Of a DNA stretch of 30,275 bases, positions 2,283 through 13,321 are shown piece by piece (position 1 is the first letter of the stretch; each line of letters opens with the position of its first letter). Origin of the DNA: a virus; the IMG/VR virus record IMGVR_UViG_3300035680_000062, positions 1 through 30,275 of that record; one strand, 5' to 3'. Both the position numbers and the translations under genes were made by a program. The notes beneath the pieces are model-generated. The model was not told the origin of the DNA, did not search any database, and saw only the letters and a program-made list of their open reading frames with translations.

Positions 2283-3059
2283 CTATACTCCGCACATCCC
2301 TTCGCATTCATTGATAAACATATTGACTTGACCATGTTCTTCTTCATTCCTAAAGTCTATCTCATCAAGAGGCTTGCAGCTTCTATGCATATATTGCTGA
2401 GACTTAAAACCGGGCTGATTCCTTATTGCTTTGTCAATTAACACGGCATCTGCAAACTCTTCAGAGCTTAAAGCTCTCCATTGGTCATTGCTATGGTAAG
2501 GGCATCCAATACATGAAGACTTCGGCGGCTTTGGGAATCCTTTTGATTGCATCCAATTTAAGCAATCTATTCGTGACATACCTTTGTCTATCAATGGGTA
2601 TTGATTTTTGATATATTGCACTTTTGAAGGCTTCATTCTATGCGCTTCGTCAGTGCTTATTCCAATAAGCATTGTGCATCCGCCTTTAGGCCTTCCACCT
2701 AATATCTCCACTACTTTTCTTTGTAATGGTCGGATCTTATACTCACCTGTGCATTGCCTCATTCCCATCCCCTTTTGTCCTTTTTCATTCAAAGTATACC
2801 ATGGGATCGCTGCAAGTCTTTCGTTATTGCCATCGGCTTTGCTTAAAATATCACTTCGTATATTCCCTGCATTTACACGATATACAGGATACGGCAATTG
2901 AGTCTCTAACCAATCAAGCCAATCGTATACGGCTTTTGGTTCCCATCCTGTATCGCTAAAAATAGCACAATCAACAGTATAGGGTAACTCATTCAAAGCA
3001 GCCATCAAAGCAAGTGTCGAAGATTGAACACCAGCGCCAAGAGAAAGTATTTTACTCAT
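2283..3059 (-). CDS. PAPS reductase / DndC-like ATP pyrophosphatase family protein
   Basis: This 258-residue protein opens with the ATP-pyrophosphatase loop SLGAGVQSSTLALM (residues 6-19). RQCTGEYKIRP (101-111), SSCIGCPYH (181-189) and a C-terminal CEGMCG follow, giving several cysteines that could hold an iron-sulfur cluster. This is the phage-borne phosphoadenosine-phosphosulfate reductase-like group, related to DndC and to tRNA thiolation enzymes. Its members activate a substrate by adenylation and then reduce it or insert sulfur. Its place between DNA methyltransferase and nuclease genes, away from any sulfur-assimilation gene, makes nucleic-acid modification a reasonable guess. The reaction is not proven. 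Its start overlaps the end of the 53-residue gene by 8 bases. Confidence 0.78.
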   Translation of the reverse strand: MSKILSLGAGVQSSTLALMAALNELPYTVDCAIFSDTGWEPKAVYDWLDWLETQLPYPVYRVNAGNIRSDILSKADGNNERLAAIPWYTLNEKGQKGMGMRQCTGEYKIRPLQRKVVEILGGRPKGGCTMLIGISTDEAHRMKPSKVQYIKNQYPLIDKGMSRIDCLNWMQSKGFPKPPKSSCIGCPYHSNDQWRALSSEEFADAVLIDKAIRNQPGFKSQQYMHRSCKPLDEIDFRNEEEHGQVNMFINECEGMCGV

Positions 3060-3213: not shown

Positions 3214-3623
3214 TTCGGTAATATATTGAAAGTTGAGATATCAAATATTATTCTTTTACCAGTCTTGGTCAAGACTTTTTTATCATCAGGTAAATCATTT
3301 AGGACATCCAAATATTGCCAATAGACAATCTCATCGTCAGTATCATACACGAATAATACTGCCCTTGCATCTATACGCTTTGCAAACTCAAGTCTTTTCT
3401 GCATTTGATACGGCGGTAATCCATGACCGTCAAAAGGGTAGTCGGGTAATCGCTTTGTAAACTTCTCTTGTGACTTCACTTCGCATATAAAGTAATTACC
3501 ATCCTTTTCGCAGACTATGTCTATTTGCATAAAGTCGTATTTACTCTTTGCAAGATAATCCCTAACAATACCCTCGCCAATAAAGCCCTTGCGTATCTCT
3601 TCTAATGAATCATCAAAGTTCAT
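3210..3623 (-). CDS. PD-(D/E)xK nuclease-like protein, 137 aa
   Basis: The N-terminal half has the spacing of a restriction-endonuclease-like fold: E17 in GFIGEGIV, D35 in QIDIVCEKDG, and E48-V-K50 in FICEVKSQ. A conserved-looking GLPPYQMQKRLEF helix follows. The product could be a Holliday-junction resolvase-like or restriction-type enzyme. It is coupled by ATGA to the DNA methyltransferase gene upstream, which raises the possibility of a restriction-modification pair. The family is too divergent to decide by eye. Confidence is good for the fold and low for the function. Confidence 0.65.
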   Translation of the reverse strand: MNFDDSLEEIRKGFIGEGIVRDYLAKSKYDFMQIDIVCEKDGNYFICEVKSQEKFTKRLPDYPFDGHGLPPYQMQKRLEFAKRIDARAVLFVYDTDDEIVYWQYLDVLNDLPDDKKVLTKTGKRIIFDISTFNILPK

Positions 3624-4825
3624 AATCTGCTCTTAATTAAATCAACATACTTACTCTCTATCTCTATCCCAGTGCATTTTCTATTTGTATTCTTTGCTGC
3701 CACTAATGTACTTCCACCACCAGCAAAAGGATCAAGAATTAAGTCATTCTCTTTTGTGCTTTTCTTAATCAAATATTCTAGCATATCCAAGGGCTTCTCA
3801 GTTGGGTGAATCATCTTTGCAGGGTCGCATCGGTTGTAATAAAGAATATCTCTATCTCTTGTGCCATTCAAATCTCGCCATACTTTATTTATGCCAAAAT
3901 ACACAACATCGAAAGACTTGCCATAAGACTTCAAATCTCCCATTCCAATAACTCGCCTGTCCCATATAAGTATATTTTTCAATGTTAAGTATTTTTCAAT
4001 TATTGGACGCAATTCTCCAATATAATCTATACTTCCAAATAGGTAAAAGTGAGCATCGTCTTTTAAGTGCTTTACTGATTTCGATAGTACACTTTCAAAA
4101 AGCTCAATAGTATCATCAATCTTATCATTAGCAATCTTTTCTTTATCGCTCCATCCGGACTTAAAATCCATGCCGTACGGCGGATCACTTAACAAAAGAT
4201 CAAACTTTGGTCCGTCGTAACTTTGCAAGTATTCTCTTGAATCTGCATGAATGATAATCTGGTCTATATTTTTGGGCTTGATTTCAGCATTGAAAGTGGT
4301 CTTAGCTTCTTCAAACTTAAATTTCTTATCCCTCTCTTTCACCACCTGCAGTACCGCCGTTCTTGTAGCAAGATCATCATTCTCTCGTGCCTCTTGCTTG
4401 ATCTGCTCAACTATCTCTTTGTTAGCGGCGAGGGTTTGAAAGCGATGCACTTGTTTTCTATCAAAGCCTAATTTCTCAACGGCTTGTTCTTTGGTTTCGA
4501 TAGGGGCTTGTGTAGAAGTGCCAAATGTTCCAGCAGTGGAACTTTTGCCACCCGTGTATTGATTGCCTCTATCACCACCACTCGCCTTTGGCATCCTCGC
4601 CAATATCTCACCAATCTTTACCTCGGCATCAAGAAGCGCCTCGGCTAACATTTGAGCCTCTTCTTTCTTTTGCTGGCGAACGCCCTCAGCTACATCAAGC
4701 TTATCAAGCGCCTTGATACCAGCCCTCACCATCGCGAGCTTATCGCGTCCAACAAGCACAAACTGAGCAAGGTCTTCAATCTTGCTAGGTAAATTACTCT
4801 CTACTCTCATCACTCCATTACTCAT
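3620..4825 (-). CDS. DNA methyltransferase with N-terminal ParB-like regulatory domain
   Basis: The C-terminal half (residues about 185-401) is an amino-methyltransferase that modifies adenine N6 or cytosine N4. The catalytic DPPYG is at 214-218, HPTEKP at 340-345 and the AdoMet-binding DPFAGGGST at 365-373. The catalytic motif comes before the AdoMet motif, as in beta-type enzymes. Residues about 10-170 form a separate helical part. It includes GEILARMPKASGGDRGNQ and a segment, KLGFDRKQVHRFQTLA, resembling the DNA-reading helix-turn-helix of ParB-like phage regulators, so this is a fusion. It may protect phage DNA from host restriction or work with the nuclease gene that overlaps its stop. 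The start overlaps the helicase stop as ATGA. Confidence 0.85.
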   Translation of the reverse strand: MSNGVMRVESNLPSKIEDLAQFVLVGRDKLAMVRAGIKALDKLDVAEGVRQQKKEEAQMLAEALLDAEVKIGEILARMPKASGGDRGNQYTGGKSSTAGTFGTSTQAPIETKEQAVEKLGFDRKQVHRFQTLAANKEIVEQIKQEARENDDLATRTAVLQVVKERDKKFKFEEAKTTFNAEIKPKNIDQIIIHADSREYLQSYDGPKFDLLLSDPPYGMDFKSGWSDKEKIANDKIDDTIELFESVLSKSVKHLKDDAHFYLFGSIDYIGELRPIIEKYLTLKNILIWDRRVIGMGDLKSYGKSFDVVYFGINKVWRDLNGTRDRDILYYNRCDPAKMIHPTEKPLDMLEYLIKKSTKENDLILDPFAGGGSTLVAAKNTNRKCTGIEIESKYVDLIKSRL

Positions 4826-6243: not shown

Positions 6244-6486
6244 AATGTAGTAAGTGTAGTAAGAGTGTAGTAAGAGTTTTTTAAGTCTTACTACATCGTA
6301 AATTGTTGTAATTTAGTGACTTACATAAGTGTAGTAAGTGTAGTAAGTAATTATTTAAAATAAACTATTATAGAATAATAAGAGTACTAGTATATTGGCC
6401 TATATGTATATGTAATTGTATAATAGTTTTAGGCCTTTTTTTTGCTAAGTCTTACTACATTTTGAATAGGGCAATTTTTGTTAAAT
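6244..6486. other. Non-coding AT-rich region, candidate replication origin or operator
   Basis: This is the largest gene-free stretch in the window. It separates the primase-helicase gene from the SF2 helicase gene. It combines clustered 9-bp repeats, a very AT-rich core at about 6348-6430 and an inverted pair GGCCTA (6398-6403) / TAGGCC (6430-6435). A T8 run follows that pair on the plus strand. A minus-strand TATAAT is at 6367-6372 but lacks a good -35 box. Repeats plus an AT-rich segment beside primase and helicase genes fit a phage origin. Autoregulation of the helicase gene is the alternative, and both may apply. Confidence 0.5.
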
Positions 6487-6522
6487 TTACCCATTAATAC
6501 CGTAGTAGGATGGTGTAGTAAG
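6246..6522. repeat. Eight-copy iteron array, TGTAGTAAG
   Basis: Exact plus-strand copies of TGTAGTAAG begin at 6246, 6255, 6266, 6330, 6339 and 6514. Exact inverted copies (CTTACTACA) lie at 6287-6295 and 6451-6459. The copies at 6246/6255 and 6330/6339 are directly abutting pairs. The two inverted copies share a longer 15-bp block (TAAGTCTTACTACAT, at 6282-6296 and 6446-6460). The copy at 6514 lies inside the 3' end of the primase gene. Such clustering is characteristic of initiator or repressor binding sites. Confidence 0.85.
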
Positions 6523-8700
6523 GACTTGTTTTACCTTGTAACACTTCACCGGCTTGCCATTTCGGCGCTTGGTGATCCTCTCGAAGCCTAAATTCTTCAT
6601 TGCGATACCAACCCTTTGCGGATTGAAGTGGAGCTTTGTAAATTGCATCATATGTGCAATTATTTCGGTTGTTGTCTTACAATTCTCTTCGGATGAATCA
6701 TCTGTTTGCGTAAAAAACATCATGATTGATTCTTCGACTGTATCGATTTGCTCATTATATGCAGATAGCTGGTTAAGTGTTTCAATATCAGCCTTAGTGA
6801 GTTGCCAAGAGCTATTACCTTCAGTGTGATAGATGCGATATGCTTCCATGAATAAGTCCGCCTTGTCGATTGCATTATATGCGTCAAAGTCAATAGACTT
6901 TATGTTTAGGGGCACGATACGGCGGTTCCCTGTAGGGTCGTTTATGATCTCAAGGTCATTTGAAGTCCCTGAAAGCACGGCATAGCGTGTAAAGTCCTGC
7001 GTAGTGCGTCCATACGGCAATCTAAGAGTAATTGTTTGCTTTGAACTTATGTCTTTAATATGCTTGTATTCAGATTTGGATTTCCCGGAGAATTCGTCAT
7101 CACAAATAATCAGTTTTTTACACATGAGGACTTCATCGTCTTTCCCTCGGTCAAGTTTTGACTCTGCATAGTAGTTAATTAGCTCTTTTGGTAGTAACCA
7201 ACGAAAGAAATTAGTCTTTCCTATCCCTTGACCACCAACTAAGACCAGGATTAAGAGAGAATAAGTACCGTGCATGGATGCAACGATTGATACTATCCAC
7301 TTTTGCAGGAATCTATGTGCATAAGCCTCGTATTCTTCGTATGGAGCACCTTGATTATCAAAGGTTATACAATTAGCTAATTTTTCTATGCAGTTTTGGG
7401 CTGTTTTACTCTTATGTAACTCAAAAAACTCTAAAAATGGGTTGTATGTAGGTATAAAGTCCGAGTAAATAATGGCATTAAAGTATGTTTGCGTGCATTT
7501 AGGCCCAAGAGACTCGGTCAATTGGATGTAAATGCTATTCATATCTGTATCAGTAATCGCTTTGCCTTTATATTCGATTTCATGAGTTAATTCATTGCGT
7601 TTGAGATCAAACTCTTTTAGCATTACCTTCATAAGAGGTATGATATTATCGTCTTTTTCCTTTTTGAGTTGCTCTTTGGGTGTATTTATGACTTTCTCTG
7701 CTATTTCCAGCGCTTCTTTTGGGTCTTCGCCTTCAGATTCGGCAAGTTTACCAACAGAGCGCTTGATATCATCTTTACTCATGCGTCCATTACGCACCAT
7801 TGAAGTAGCTGCAGCCTCCCACTTCTTTGTTCTTTCTGTTTGAATGTCAATGTTATACTTTTTGCATAGATAGAATAGAGTTCCAATACCTATGACCCCT
7901 TTATTAGTTGCAAGGATATTGTCATACTTCTTATCAGTCTTTTGAGCGTCGTATTTATTGCTATTGATTTCAGATATTTGGTGAAAGAAGTCGCGGCCGC
8001 GTTCACCATATTCGGTAGCGAGTGCTCTACCGACATTAACCCAATCGCCATAGTCATTCACTAAATCGATGCGTCTTGCTCGGAGTTGTTTGATCATGTG
8101 CTCTACATCCGGTTCGATTATGGCGTGCATAACCTTTGGCGCTGTTTGAACTACTTTCTTTCTATATCGTGTGAATACTGGTACTTTATCCGGATCATTA
8201 GTGACTATGTTAGGATCATAGGATATAAAACGCAATCGGCTTATATCTTTGCATGATGGATCGCATTCGAGTTGATAGTTTTCCAGTAGATAGTCTTCAA
8301 GGCCTTCGAATGATTCGAGGTGCTTGTTTGGGTCAATCTTAAAATAAGCAGCGTATCCATAGCCTCCGAGTGACATATGAAGTGCTAGGATATGCTTATC
8401 GGCTCGGAGCTTGTCAATCTTTTCATTTATGTCTATATTGTCTTGATCATCGATATCCATGCAGATGACGCCGTTATGTTTGACCAGTGATGCGACGCCT
8501 CTGCCTTGGAACTCTCCTGACATTGCAAAAGCTGGCATTTTGCTTTTAGCGGCTTTTTGTTCTTCTTTGGTTTTCATATTACGGTAGGGAGTTACTATAT
8601 CCTCCCACCTCCCTCTTTTGATATCCCAAAAAAACTGCACAATGTCTCTGAAGTCCTTTTGTTCAGTAGCTTGTGCGCTGGTGTATTCAGTGATTCTCAT
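6487..8700 (-). CDS. Primase-helicase: BT4734-like N-terminus, PriCT-2-like middle, VirE-like helicase
   Basis: This 737-residue multidomain replication protein has three parts. Residues 1-185 resemble the BT4734-like N-terminal domain; MDIDDQD at 81-87 could bind the metals of a primase-polymerase fold. Residues about 195-285 (DYGDWVNVGRALATEYG) resemble Primase C-terminal 2. Residues about 400-650 are a VirE-type superfamily 3 helicase/ATPase, with P-loop GGQGIGKT at 489-496, acidic motif LIICDDEF at 530-537, sensor LSGTSND at 576-582 and arginine segment GNRRIVPL at 591-598. It probably both primes and unwinds phage DNA. It is coupled by ATGA to the DnaA-like gene upstream and ends at the candidate origin, which supports a replication-initiation module. 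Confidence 0.87.
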   Translation of the reverse strand: MRITEYTSAQATEQKDFRDIVQFFWDIKRGRWEDIVTPYRNMKTKEEQKAAKSKMPAFAMSGEFQGRGVASLVKHNGVICMDIDDQDNIDINEKIDKLRADKHILALHMSLGGYGYAAYFKIDPNKHLESFEGLEDYLLENYQLECDPSCKDISRLRFISYDPNIVTNDPDKVPVFTRYRKKVVQTAPKVMHAIIEPDVEHMIKQLRARRIDLVNDYGDWVNVGRALATEYGERGRDFFHQISEINSNKYDAQKTDKKYDNILATNKGVIGIGTLFYLCKKYNIDIQTERTKKWEAAATSMVRNGRMSKDDIKRSVGKLAESEGEDPKEALEIAEKVINTPKEQLKKEKDDNIIPLMKVMLKEFDLKRNELTHEIEYKGKAITDTDMNSIYIQLTESLGPKCTQTYFNAIIYSDFIPTYNPFLEFFELHKSKTAQNCIEKLANCITFDNQGAPYEEYEAYAHRFLQKWIVSIVASMHGTYSLLILVLVGGQGIGKTNFFRWLLPKELINYYAESKLDRGKDDEVLMCKKLIICDDEFSGKSKSEYKHIKDISSKQTITLRLPYGRTTQDFTRYAVLSGTSNDLEIINDPTGNRRIVPLNIKSIDFDAYNAIDKADLFMEAYRIYHTEGNSSWQLTKADIETLNQLSAYNEQIDTVEESIMMFFTQTDDSSEENCKTTTEIIAHMMQFTKLHFNPQRVGIAMKNLGFERITKRRNGKPVKCYKVKQVLTTPSYYGING

Positions 8701-9137
8701 GCCTTGGCCTTGCGAATAAGTTGTAAGTAGATTTCGTTGAAGTTCGGGTCTAGTATGCGCTCGTGTTTGATATTTCGGGCTGCAATTATAGGTAATTTAC
8801 GATCGCAATTAAATATAAAAGCGATATCCGTCATTGTGAATGCAAAGTCTTGATAGCATATTGTTATTGCCACATGGCGCGCAAAGCTTTGGCGCTGGTG
8901 GATATGCTGAACTGATACGCCGTAATATTCTGCGACTACTTCAATAACCCGCTCGGATACTTCATAGAGTTGGGCCGTGTTCAGTTTTCGAACACGCCCG
9001 CGCGGTTTCTTTGTTCGATTTCCGAACAATTCCTCGCGTTCTATTTTAAGAATCGCAGAAAGCGGGAGCGTAGCCAGCGGCTTAGGGTTTGTATCTTGCG
9101 CGAGATCACTGATGTGACCGATCGGATGTAAGGGCAT
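8697..9137 (-). CDS. DnaA domain IV-like DNA-binding protein with shared N-terminal motif
   Basis: Residues about 55-146 follow the layout of the DnaA C-terminal DNA-binding domain. VIEVVAEYYGVSVQHIHQ leads into a helix with RQSFARHVAITI. DIAFIFNCDRKLPIIAARNI then corresponds to the family's IG-x-x-F-x-x-RDHSTV recognition helix, although the RDHS signature is not intact. PLSAILKIEREEL (residues 25-37) is a diverged copy of the motif found in the next three upstream genes. A basic, AT-hook-like KKPRGRVRK follows it. ATG 9137 has GAGG seven bases upstream. Immediately before the primase gene, it is a strong candidate for an origin-binding protein. Confidence 0.7.
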   Translation of the reverse strand: MPLHPIGHISDLAQDTNPKPLATLPLSAILKIEREELFGNRTKKPRGRVRKLNTAQLYEVSERVIEVVAEYYGVSVQHIHQRQSFARHVAITICYQDFAFTMTDIAFIFNCDRKLPIIAARNIKHERILDPNFNEIYLQLIRKAKA

Positions 9138-9176
9138 ACTTTTTCCTCAATGTAATATCCGACTTGTAAAGTAGTT

Positions 9177-9740
9177 TCACGATCTAAATTGTTCATGTCG
9201 AGTCCAGAGATAGTCTTCGATTTTTTGGGCTGTTAGTTGCACTTGCGAGTAAGTATCGAGCTCGTCCATAGCCGCGTAAATATGATGCGAAAGAGTCGAG
9301 CGATTCATGTTTAGGTATTCGGCGATCTTGAATGATGTAAGCTTCAGATATACGGTTGCAAAGAATATAAACATCCGCTTTGCTGCTATTAGCTCTTGGA
9401 ATCTTACCTTGTCTCTAAGAGTGTGATTTGTTGGAAAGTGTTTGAGCACTTCGACTTCAAGCCCGGATAGCTCCGCGTATGGATTTGCGAAGGCAAAGTC
9501 TATGCCTCGTTTCATAAAGTGAGCGCTTTTGGTTTTGTGGTTAATTTGAGCGTATTGAAGCTGCGGCCTCTTTTGTTTTGCAAAGTAATAATCTGCAAGT
9601 TTGTTGTTAGTTTTTATCGCTTGGTTTGCTTTGCGTTCGAGTTCTTCGCGTTCCTCTCGTAGTTGCTCTGATAGGCTTTTGCCTTTGATGAAGGGGGTCG
9701 GTAGACCTTCCCCCTCATCTAGTAAAAACACTGAATTCAT
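9177..9740 (-). CDS. Shared-motif protein with DnaA-C-like helix-turn-helix, 187 aa
   Basis: The N-terminus carries KGKSLSEQLREEREELERKA (residues 19-38), nearly the same motif as in the two genes upstream. After a basic linker, residues about 85-170 form a helical domain. Its ELIAAKRMFIFFATVYLKL and FKIAEYLNMNRSTLSHHI read as the two core helices and recognition helix of a DnaA domain IV-type helix-turn-helix (compare 'IA..L...RSTV.H'). It begins by ATGA overlap with the RHH gene, with GAGG in front. It probably binds DNA, perhaps the repeats at 6246-6522. It is not obviously a recent duplicate of the 146-residue gene, because the two differ in most positions. Confidence 0.68.
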   Translation of the reverse strand: MNSVFLLDEGEGLPTPFIKGKSLSEQLREEREELERKANQAIKTNNKLADYYFAKQKRPQLQYAQINHKTKSAHFMKRGIDFAFANPYAELSGLEVEVLKHFPTNHTLRDKVRFQELIAAKRMFIFFATVYLKLTSFKIAEYLNMNRSTLSHHIYAAMDELDTYSQVQLTAQKIEDYLWTRHEQFRS

Positions 9741-10045
9741 TTTACATCCTCGAAATCTTTGAAGTATTTAGTTAGTGCTCGGCGGAATAGCTCTCTTTGT
9801 GAGATATTTTGCGCCTTTGCAAGTGCTCGGAATCTATCCGCCATTGCGTGTGGTAACTTGAGAGCAAGCGGAGTAATGCCTTGTCTTTCATCTGGTGTGA
9901 GTCCTTCGCCTTTGCTCTTTTGGTATCCGATTGCAGTTTTCTCAATTACCTTGCGTTCCTCTCGTAATTGCTGAGACAATGGAACTCCTAGCTTAAGCGA
10001 AGTCTCGATACCTGCTACTTCTTTGTATAGAGCGGAGATTTTCAT
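9737..10045 (-). CDS. Shared-motif protein with ribbon-helix-helix domain, 102 aa
   Basis: Residues 20-38 (GVPLSQQLREERKVIEKTA) are the shared motif. A short linker (about 39-57) precedes PLALKLPHAMADRFRALAKA followed by NISQRELFRRALTKYF. Together these read as the strand and two helices of an Arc/MetJ-type ribbon-helix-helix DNA-binding domain. Such domains dimerise and repress promoters or segregate DNA. It overlaps both neighbours by ATGA, and AGGTG precedes the start. A repressor of the early operon is one plausible role. Confidence 0.68.
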   Translation of the reverse strand: MKISALYKEVAGIETSLKLGVPLSQQLREERKVIEKTAIGYQKSKGEGLTPDERQGITPLALKLPHAMADRFRALAKAQNISQRELFRRALTKYFKDFEDVK

Positions 10046-10380
10046 AGTTCACCTGTTTCATGCATTGCAATAATGTAAGCTAAGAATTTGATTTTTACTT
10101 TATCATGTATATTCATGGTTAACACTTCGCGAGCGTGTTTTACAAATTCAGATGGTATCCAATCCAAGCCTTTGTTTATTCTTGCTTCAGGCTTTGGCTT
10201 ATTAGTTCCACCTGGTTTGCGCCCGCGTTTCCTCGGCGCTCCAAGTTCATCGGGTGTGGCTTTATGTTTGATTGCAGATTTCTCTACGATTTCTCTTTCT
10301 TGTCTTAATTGCTGGCTCATAGGTACTCCTTTTTTAAATGCTGTTTGTTCCGGTGGTACGGGAACTGGTTTTATATTCAT
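10042..10380 (-). CDS. Shared-motif protein with AT-hook-like segment, 112 aa
   Basis: Residues 18-36 (GVPMSQQLRQEREIVEKSA) are the shared motif. Residues about 49-58 (PRKRGRKPGG) contain a classical AT-hook core, RGRKP, which binds the minor groove of AT-rich DNA. The C-terminal helical part (WIPSEFVKHAREVLTM, then KVKIKFLAYIIAMHE) is not recognised. AAGGAG lies seven bases before ATG 10380, and the start overlaps the nuclease stop as ATGA. This is the most upstream member of the four-gene set. DNA binding is inferred from the AT-hook alone. Confidence 0.62.
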   Translation of the reverse strand: MNIKPVPVPPEQTAFKKGVPMSQQLRQEREIVEKSAIKHKATPDELGAPRKRGRKPGGTNKPKPEARINKGLDWIPSEFVKHAREVLTMNIHDKVKIKFLAYIIAMHETGEL

Positions 10381-10994
10381 GCTGCTACTCCTTCTTTCAA
10401 TTGCAAAACATCTTCTTTATCAAGGCCTCGAACTAAGATATACTCATGCAAGTAGTGTATCATATTTCGGACATATTCGTAATTGTACGCGGGTCTCGGG
10501 AATGAGTATTCCGCTTTGTTTTTAAAGTCCATCGCTTCAGGTGAATCGAACTCGAATATCTTGTAATGGACATATGGCGCGTTGAATAGCTCGCAATATA
10601 CTCGCCATTGCAGAGAGTTATAATAGTCATCAAAACTGATTGTACTGTACTTGGTTTTGATTTCCACAACATCAAGCCCGATAAGTTGGTCTGCAACGCC
10701 TGTAACTGATATATCACCAAATTGAGTACGGAAGACGCGGCGAACTTTATACTCAAACACTCGCGAGCGGTAATCCATGCAATTACGGGCATTAATAATG
10801 CAGTTATCGCTAAATTGTCCCTCGAACTCTTGCGGGCTGTCGGTTTGCATCATCTCATGGAATGCGATACCTCTTTGCATCATTGCATTAGGCGGATCGA
10901 GTCTCAAAAGTGAGCGCTCGAACTGCTCGACTGTTATTAGACCATCAAGAAAGCGGCGGTAAGATTCGAGCTGGGTTGCGGAGATTTTAATCAT
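10377..10994 (-). CDS. PD-(D/E)xK exonuclease, RecB/Cas4-like, 205 aa
   Basis: The nuclease core is visible in order. H46 lies in GIAFHEMM, D102 in VTGVADQL, E111-x-K113 in VVEIKTKYS, and LQWRVYCELF resembles the QxxxY helix of RecB and Cas4 nucleases. Such enzymes resect double-stranded ends to load a single-strand annealing protein, and the Sak4-like ATPase sits four genes upstream. I chose ATG 10994 because AGGA lies eight bases before it and it overlaps the upstream stop as ATGATTAA. The longer frame to 11075 adds 27 residues inside the previous gene. Confidence 0.8.
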   Translation of the reverse strand: MIKISATQLESYRRFLDGLITVEQFERSLLRLDPPNAMMQRGIAFHEMMQTDSPQEFEGQFSDNCIINARNCMDYRSRVFEYKVRRVFRTQFGDISVTGVADQLIGLDVVEIKTKYSTISFDDYYNSLQWRVYCELFNAPYVHYKIFEFDSPEAMDFKNKAEYSFPRPAYNYEYVRNMIHYLHEYILVRGLDKEDVLQLKEGVAA

Positions 10995-11929: not shown

Positions 11930-12202
11930 CTACCTTGGTTCTTTATATCTAACTTCATTGTATACTAGACCAGATTTTCTATGCATATTTTCACCATGAA
12001 ACTCCAGCCTATTTGTCAAAATATCTAAATATAGATTTTGAGCGCAGTATTGCATTTCAAGTTGCACCCTATCGTATTCAGGAATTTCCATGAAGGATGA
12101 ATCTTGAAAGATTTTATAGATTTCATTATTCTTTTTCCATACATAATTATATTCTTCTTCTAATTCTTCTAGCATTCTTTCTGTCATATATTTCCAAATC
12201 AT
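11930..12202 (-). CDS. Hypothetical protein, 90 aa
   Basis: This 90-residue protein is rich in aromatic and acidic residues. Its long N-terminal helix (MLEELEEEYNYVWKKNNE) may form a coiled coil. It overlaps the Sak4-like gene stop as ATGA, with GAGG just before the start. No family is recognised. The base composition of this gene and of 10987-11490 is more AT-rich than that of the neighbours, which could mean later acquisition. Confidence 0.55.
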   Translation of the reverse strand: MIWKYMTERMLEELEEEYNYVWKKNNEIYKIFQDSSFMEIPEYDRVQLEMQYCAQNLYLDILTNRLEFHGENMHRKSGLVYNEVRYKEPR

Positions 12203-13092
12203 CTCACCACCTCTTCAAACTTACCGCTTTCTTTATTCCAAGTCAAGCCACGCTCTCCAAAGGTAGTCACGACTGAAGCCCAAACCGCGCGCTTTAAAGC
12301 ATCCTCTAACCCCGCTTTACTTAAGTCTGAAACGAATTTATTAGCATCCTTTGCGGCTTTTGCCTTTTCGGACCACTCGCTGACCAAGGCAATTGCTGCC
12401 TCTTGCTCTTTGGAGCGTCTGCTTATTGCCGTTTTGGTATGTTCTAAAATATCGGCAAGACAAGTAGTCATAGAGTGCAAGCCATCTACATGAACGGGTG
12501 CAATCTCCGCGCAATTTTTAGCTACGATGCTATCAGAGAGGTCAAATGTCAATACTCTCTTATTGCCTTGCGTAGTATAGTATCCTACTAGGTCGCATGA
12601 CTGCATAAGTAGGTCATAACTTGCACCCGGTATGAGAGGGCGTTTAATTCGCATATCGCCTTCTTCTTTCTCTTTGGCATGTGCAATGAAAACTACATTC
12701 TTACCACTAAGCTTAAGAGGTGTAAAAAACTCTTGAAATGTTCTCTTTGTTTCGCCCCATAGCTTGATCGTATTGCGAAGAAGTCCGGGGTTATTGATAG
12801 TAAGGTGCATCTGCATTAATTCAATAACAGTGCCCGCCGTATCGATAATGATCGTATCATGCTTGGCTAGGATGCTATCAAGTTCAACCTTGTTATTTAG
12901 CAAGTCTTGCCATGACTCGAACTGCAGGCCGTTCTTGAGTAGTGAGGATCTATGAAGCCCTCGGTCGAAGTCCAATACAATTGGATTCGGTGCGGTATTC
13001 GCGAGTGTGGTCTTGCCGATTCCGGGATCGCCGTAGATTAGGACATTCAGCCCGTTTACTTGCATCCCGCCTGTTTGTGTGATTAGTCTCAT
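12199..13092 (-). CDS. Sak4-like RecA-fold ATPase (AAA_24), recombination
   Basis: This 297-residue P-loop ATPase has Walker A GDPGIGKTT at residues 21-29 and Walker B TIIIDTAG at 80-87. The segment VVFIAHAKEKEEGDMRIKRPLIPG is typical of the phage AAA_24/Sak4 group. Sak4 proteins are short RecA-like single-strand annealing or strand-exchange proteins that work with an SSB. The SSB (1056-1379) and the RecB-like nuclease (10377-10994) would complete such a pathway. The C-terminal helical part (from about residue 215) is charged and less typical. The start is set by AGGAG inside the repeated 27-bp leader. Confidence 0.8.
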   Translation of the reverse strand: MRLITQTGGMQVNGLNVLIYGDPGIGKTTLANTAPNPIVLDFDRGLHRSSLLKNGLQFESWQDLLNNKVELDSILAKHDTIIIDTAGTVIELMQMHLTINNPGLLRNTIKLWGETKRTFQEFFTPLKLSGKNVVFIAHAKEKEEGDMRIKRPLIPGASYDLLMQSCDLVGYYTTQGNKRVLTFDLSDSIVAKNCAEIAPVHVDGLHSMTTCLADILEHTKTAISRRSKEQEAAIALVSEWSEKAKAAKDANKFVSDLSKAGLEDALKRAVWASVVTTFGERGLTWNKESGKFEEVVR

Positions 13093-13115
13093 GTCTCAAC
13101 TCCTTTAATAAATTA
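13089..13115 (-). repeat. 27-bp gene-junction repeat, copy 1
   Basis: This is identical to 13295-13321. Read on the minus strand, it holds the TAA stop of the 61-residue gene, a short AT spacer, the AAAGGAG ribosome site and the ATGA start of the Sak4-like gene. The two copies exactly bracket the 61-residue gene. Confidence 0.9.
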
Positions 13116-13298
13116 ACGTTCGTAATCAGTGCCTAAAAGTAGCATCTGTTCTGTTGCTTGTTCGAGTTCGTTCTCTGCTTGTTCAAGCTCTTTCTCAAGT
13201 GCTCGGACTCTTTCTGTTGCTTTCATGTGTCTAGCAATTGCCTCTCGGCATTTCATTTGTTCGACCTCTGCCATTGTGTCGATATCGCATTCATTCAT
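13113..13298 (-). CDS. Small coiled-coil protein, 61 aa
   Basis: From about residue 12, almost the entire product is a predicted coiled coil. ATERVRALEKELEQAENELE shows a clear heptad pattern. It has ATG 13298 with AGGAG seven bases upstream. It is flanked on both sides by the identical 27-bp junction, so it looks like a single-gene cassette inserted between the 79-residue gene and the Sak4-like gene. No family or function is recognised; oligomerisation is likely. Confidence 0.6.
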   Translation of the reverse strand: MNECDIDTMAEVEQMKCREAIARHMKATERVRALEKELEQAENELEQATEQMLLLGTDYER

Positions 13299-13321
13299 GT
13301 CTCAACTCCTTTAATAAATTA
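13295..13321 (-). repeat. 27-bp gene-junction repeat, copy 2
   Basis: This is identical to 13089-13115. It contains the stop codon of the 79-residue gene, the AAAGGAG ribosome site and the ATGA start of the 61-residue coiled-coil gene. Confidence 0.9.

Follow-up and report, generated by a model that had tools for sequence, protein, structure and literature searches.

A short N-terminal tag on different DNA-binding proteins of uncultured phages: a putative docking helix next to a primase-helicase whose C-terminus covaries with the origin repeats

Four consecutive genes (gp1 to gp4) of a virus record of 30,275 bases, here called the window (the whole stretch of DNA that was analysed), encode proteins in which homologous versions of one N-terminal module of ~28 residues precede different DNA-binding domains. 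The four genes and the adjacent primase-helicase gene are on the minus strand. The reading that we favour, with some reservation, is that two to four different DNA-binding proteins of each phage dock to one common partner through this tag, which would be a short amphipathic helix. In a limited literature search we found no precedent for shared tags on DNA-binding proteins.

Table 1. Features of the tag locus and its neighbourhood (positions in the window).
Feature	Position	Strand	Description
gp1	10042..10380	(-)	112 aa; the tag module precedes an AT-hook-like basic region; gene present in some phages only
tag module of gp1 (QTAFKKGVPMSQQLRQEREIVEKSAIKH)	10264..10347	(-)	tag profile E 1.6e-17
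gp2	9737..10045	(-)	102 aa; tag module and ribbon-helix-helix (RHH) domain
tag module of gp2 (ETSLKLGVPLSQQLREERKVIEKTAIGY)	9923..10006	(-)	tag profile E 3.2e-14
gp3	9177..9740	(-)	187 aa; the tag module leads via a flexible linker to a DnaA-domain-IV-like domain (residues ~70-187)
tag module of gp3 (TPFIKGKSLSEQLREEREELERKANQ)	9621..9698	(-)	tag profile E 6.6e-15
gp4	8697..9137	(-)	146 aa; the tag module is followed by the basic stretch KKPRGRVRK and a DnaA-domain-IV-like domain (residues ~54-146)
tag module of gp4 (NPKPLATLPLSAILKIEREELFGNRTKK)	9006..9089	(-)	tag profile E 2.9e-13 (gp4 family itself in profile)
primase-helicase	6487..8700	(-)	BT4734-like N-terminal domain, PriCT_2, VapE-like AAA+ domain
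primase-helicase C-terminal region	6490..6753	(-)	residues 650-737, predicted DNA-binding; covaries with iteron sequence
putative origin	6244..6486	(.)	seven copies of the CTTACTACA-type repeat, in both orientations, and AT-rich DNA; between primase and helicase genes
PD-(D/E)XK nuclease-like protein	10377..10994	(-)	upstream neighbour; candidate tag partner
Sak4-like recombinase	12199..13092	(-)	found alongside tags in the contigs recovered; candidate tag partner

All four ORFs are present as described earlier (Table 1). The preliminary description had also presented the genes as one coupled operon close to an iteron array, and both points need correction: gp3 and gp4 do not overlap but are separated by a gap of 39 bp, and the iterons lie on the far side of the primase gene, at a distance of ~2.3 kb. 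An Rfam search returned no matches, and the result of a promoter scan was no better than chance. Elsewhere in the window there is a perfect 27-bp direct repeat (13089-13115 and 13295-13321), which comprises a ribosome-binding site and start codon region and stands before the Sak4-like gene and before a 61-aa ORF. A phosphoadenosine phosphosulfate reductase-like gene (2283-3059; phrog_424, E 1.6e-47) has methyltransferase genes nearby (1366-1947 and 3620-4825).

The core of the module can be written as Phi0-S1-x-x-L4-[RK]5-x-E7-R8-x-x-Phi11; it starts at residues 21, 23, 23 and 26 in the four proteins, and its location within each protein is nearly constant. The simpler pattern [PS][LM]S..L[RK].ER, in which the resemblance had originally been noticed, is indeed confined to gp1-gp4 when all six frames of the window are scanned. 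Judged from their alignments, gp1, gp2 and gp3 are beyond doubt homologous within the module: the Smith-Waterman scores are 98, 66 and 62 as against shuffle means of ~28, and none of 2000 shuffles scored as high. The gp4 module gave no significant similarity in such comparisons (Smith-Waterman, shuffles) when the sequences of the window alone were used. We assign it to the tag set because its distant orthologues, which have LSQQLKIER, and leave-one-family-out profiles tie it in. A profile of gp1-gp3 reaches the gp4 orthologues at E 0.014, the best non-member being at 2.7, and a profile of gp4 and gp5 (a further tagged protein, see below) reaches gp1 and gp2 at ~0.001 and gp3 at ~0.1, barely above non-members. 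The case for homology of the gp4 and gp5 tags with those of gp1-gp3, built on these profiles, is the weaker one. Across ~190 loci (5260 ORFs) the motif was found near the N-terminus of 83 distinct ORFs, 81 of which belong to the tagged family, and this excludes the possibility that the tag is a generic helix of early proteins. The idea that it is a sliding-clamp motif, suggested by ELFG and QLFG in gp4 and gp5, was dropped because gp1-gp3 do not have these sequences.

The domains which follow the tag are different, as had been proposed. The gp2 protein matches RHH_1 with 25.1 bits, above the Pfam gathering cut-off of 20.5. The matches to Bac_DnaA_C stay below the cut-off of 31.5 bits both for gp4 (23.4 bits, E 6e-5) and for gp3, where the match is weak (14.3 bits); a profile of gp4 orthologues matches DnaA in the PDB at 0.0015. 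The AlphaFold2 models of gp3 and gp4 were matched by Foldseek to 1j1v and 3pvp with target TM-scores of 0.80-0.86, rmsd values of 1.3-1.7 and a probability of 1.00, at E-values between 3e-3 and 2e-1. Both proteins, as modelled, adopt the fold of DnaA domain IV. Neither of these proteins (187 and 146 aa) has a Pfam match to an AAA+ domain, hence they are not full-length DnaA initiators. In gp1 of the window the basic stretch RKRGRKPGG is AT-hook-like, and the gp1 orthologue of the distant relative L100 has two textbook AT-hooks (RGRPPK and MGRPKK), which are sub-threshold in Pfam (AT_hook, 0.033, 14.5 vs. 17.4 bits). In the AlphaFold2 models the tag forms a helix of its own (residues 23-43 in gp3 and 26-38 in gp4) outside the folded DNA-binding domain and joined to the DnaA-IV-like fold by a low-confidence linker; the pLDDT of the tag itself is only ~60 in gp3 and ~50 in gp4.

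Judged from dN/dS ratios, purifying selection on the tag is stronger than on the rest of the gene for gp2 (0.035 vs. 0.177) and gp3 (0.074 vs. 0.128), whereas the difference is small for gp4 (0.066, close to the 0.089 of the rest). Between paralogues the synonymous differences of the tags are ~0.6-1.2, i.e. near saturation, which rules out a recent copying of the tag, and the nonsynonymous differences are 0.2-0.55. Because the synonymous sites are nearly saturated while the amino acids are kept and dN/dS is low, the tag must be old and constrained. Among divergent orthologues it is one of the most conserved stretches, whereas the DNA-binding part diverges. The conserved positions 0, 4, 7, 8 and 11 fall on one face of a helix, with modest statistical support (permutation p 0.017 for positions 0-11 and 0.10 for positions 0-15).

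The tag occurs on two to four proteins per phage in ~35 related IMG/VR contigs, which were recovered alike by scans with gp1, gp2, gp3, gp4, gp5, the primase and Sak4. About 30 of the IMG/VR contigs are close relatives, the distant ones (L100/L101 and L105-L107) were reached via the primase. We presume from the sample numbering that the tagged phages are of freshwater origin. In a census with the tag profile, 17 records had two to four tags per phage, all within this gene neighbourhood, and no match was found in eight tagless control records. The genes around the tag are less constant. The gp1 gene is optional and is replaced in some phages by an untagged gene with a match to the Recombinase domain; such small genes occupy the place of gp1 in L015 (5382-5696) and L018 (5379-5696), the copy in L015 scoring just above the Pfam Recombinase cut-off. 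L105 and L107 encode the additional tagged protein gp5, whose N-terminus resembles that of gp4 and whose C-terminal sequence is different. In the distant relatives L100 and L101 gp3 has no tag, and a six-frame profile search of these two found no remnant of it, thus the tag is not obligatory for gp3. The preliminary description had named homologues without the motif, or a motif that is generic, as observations that would speak against the proposed grouping. The untagged gp3 proteins are such homologues; on the other side, gp4 has the tag in all records in which this gene is covered, the tag is present in every gp2 examined, and the generic-helix explanation has failed. A cassette of an SNF2-type helicase and a DNA methyltransferase lies between gp2 (or gp5) and gp3 in some relatives (L022:3634-6001, L055:6306-8655, L105:4291-6680) and is absent from this place in the window.

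Outside this group of phages the searches were negative. Isolated phages gave no match with gp3, gp4 or the gp3 N-terminus, nor did cellular genomes with the gp3 and gp4 profiles, and the plasmids searched with gp2 yielded no tag, just one irrelevant weak match; the gp3 of L105, used as query, found two weak matches only, both outside the tag. Co-occurrence with BT4734/VapE primases, which had been suggested as a check, turned out not to be general: no tag was found beside primase relatives at 44% identity or less. The type of the primase and the closest named phages suggest hosts among the Bacteroidota.

The docking interpretation pictures the tag as the constant docking part and the DNA-binding domains as the interchangeable, more variable part of these proteins. 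The tagged proteins would act as accessory adaptors and recruit the partner to DNA sites other than the iterons; their layout would be like that of a DnaA that has lost the ATPase and retains only domain IV and the N-terminal part for docking. In its favour we counted, besides the homology, rarity and constraint of the tag, the independent turnover of genes around it, including the appearance of gp5, and against it the untagged gp3 of L100/L101, the modest result of the helical-face test, the low pLDDT of the tag, the weakness of gp4 when taken alone and the small dN/dS difference within gp4. The partner would have to be kept in phages whose primases differ greatly in their N-terminal regions. 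The most likely candidates are therefore the primase-helicase with its AAA+ core, the recombination pair of Sak4 and PD-(D/E)XK, a replication protein of the host, and the tagged proteins themselves. Co-occurrence does not discriminate between these candidates because Sak4, PD-(D/E)XK and the tags were inherited together.

The last candidate amounts to a different explanation, in which the tag is a mutual assembly helix, and the tagged proteins of one phage pair into mixed oligomers with no third protein involved. It would account for the fact that every phage with tags has two or more of them, the partial heptad pattern of gp1-gp3 (positions 0, 4, 11 and 15 are hydrophobic) agrees with it, and DnaA domain I, which both self-associates and docks DnaB (PMC5448010), provides a parallel. 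The helix is, however, short, and its gp4/gp5 form, with Phi11-F-G as the end, is highly charged, and in L100, where gp3 lacks the tag, only gp1 and gp4 would be left to pair; we consider this explanation unlikely, although worth keeping in mind. Still less probable in our judgement is that the tag is a leftover of old early-gene duplications or fusions, kept for reasons local to each protein and without any common partner. Some of the genes are paralogous (gp3, gp4 and gp5 share a DnaA-IV-like layout or a similar N-terminus) and gp3 can do without the tag, but a leftover would hardly be expected on three different folds near the same residue in each, nor to evolve under tighter constraint than the remainder of gp2 and gp3. 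That the tagged proteins form an origin complex on the iterons, as the preliminary description proposed, is very improbable: two members have DnaA-domain-IV folds and the primase gene comes directly after the cluster, with a repeat array nearby, but the repeat type varies in step with the primase C-terminus despite near-constant gp2-gp4.

The primase gene is directly followed by the repeats, which occupy the space between it and the helicase gene, and this layout is kept in the relatives, whereas the repeat unit varies (TTACTACA, CTTACCAC, TGACAACA, CTGGAGAC and others). Across the iteron types gp4 is 95-99%, gp3 mostly 87-99% and gp2 86-98% identical. Compared with the window, L088, L091 and L097 have gp4 proteins of 95-97%, gp3 proteins of 88-95% and gp2 proteins of 86-97% identity; since these proteins are nearly the same while the repeats differ, gp2-gp4 are unlikely to set the repeat. 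What does change together with the iteron sequence is the C-terminus of the primase-helicase. L088 represents a natural swap: its primase is 99% identical to that of the window over residues 1-290, but only 40% over residues 650-737, and its repeat is different. Conversely, the primases of L090, L092 and L095 are ~42-44% identical to that of the window in the N-terminal part and 68-72% at the C-terminus, and these phages have retained TTACTACA. L091, L093, L094 and L109, which carry CTTACCAC, differ from L095 at the C-terminus by YTK to YSK, NGKP to NGKS and a few changes near the tail end; in phages of this type the T to S and P to S replacements are paired with a one-base change of the repeat, from TTACTACA to TTACCAC. 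This covariation suggests that origin choice tracks the primase-helicase C-terminus and not the tagged proteins, and we infer from it that the C-terminal domain recognises the iterons. Contig IMGVR_UViG_3300032050_006297 (L086 and L104; 47.5 kb) has two primase-helicase genes, which belong to different sub-types and have different repeats; two phages may have been joined here, or the assembly may be chimeric.

As an iteron-binding initiator complex, gp1-gp4 were thus rejected, their identity does not follow the iterons. The more general proposal, that the set docks to one partner, for example as an origin-binding or partition complex, survives in part: the selected common tag, the different domains and the tight cluster speak for a common partner, whereas varying iterons next to gp2-gp4 proteins of 86-99% identity speak against the iterons as their target. 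The tagged proteins could still have a role at the origin by binding a non-iteron part of it. An alignment of the origins revealed an AT-rich block (around TTGAATTTTAA..AACTTA), which is independent of the repeat type and conserved among the tag-bearing phages; L113 and L148, which have no tags, have a different sequence at this position. As a lead only, we regard this block as a candidate target of the accessory tagged proteins.

The two lines of evidence can be combined, tentatively, into a wider picture in which a single docking helix, used as a plug on changing domains (DnaA-IV, RHH, AT-hook, gp5-type), would bring one replication/recombination machine to several kinds of DNA sites, while the primase-helicase, through its swappable C-terminus, would choose the origin. 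This combined picture is possible rather than probable. If the tag docks to one partner, it would be a compact natural case of plug-in DNA targeting in phages. The comparison also separates, by covariation, the reader of the origin repeats (the primase C-terminus) from the accessory proteins, and with the swap in L088 and the paired changes of the L091-type phages, origin recognition by enzymes of this family becomes open to direct tests.

It is instructive to compare these proteins with known systems. By their primase (VapE-type, with a ResIII helicase) the closest named phages are the Flavobacteriaceae phages phi46:1, P12024S and mumin (32-39% identity), whose genomes have no match to the tag profile anywhere. 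Small proteins consisting of the DnaA C-terminal part only are common in uncultured Caudovirales (many are in BFVD), and Flavobacterium phages have proteins with a DnaA-type HTH. Like gp3 and gp4, the small proteins of tailed phages have the fold of DnaA domain IV without the AAA+ part; here, in contrast, there are two or three per phage, and they have the N-terminal tag in common with RHH and AT-hook proteins. No tag was found on the DnaA-type proteins of the phage isolates examined. Bacterial DnaA resembles the tagged proteins in that an N-terminal part for protein-protein docking, its domain I, is joined to domain IV. The tagged proteins differ from it by having neither the AAA+ domain III nor a folded domain I, the tag being one helix that also occurs on unrelated folds. 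The likeness to SaPI Rep and SCCmec Cch2 concerns the primase-helicase and not the tagged proteins. In SaPI Rep and Cch2 the recognition of iterons downstream of the gene is attributed to the C-terminal domain (PMC7581432). Here as well the iterons are directly downstream of the primase-helicase gene, and we read the C-terminus of the phage enzyme by the same logic. The phage enzyme, a BT4734/PriCT_2 fusion, is of a different lineage, and its recognition of the iterons would be a property that the covariation of C-terminus and repeat points to.
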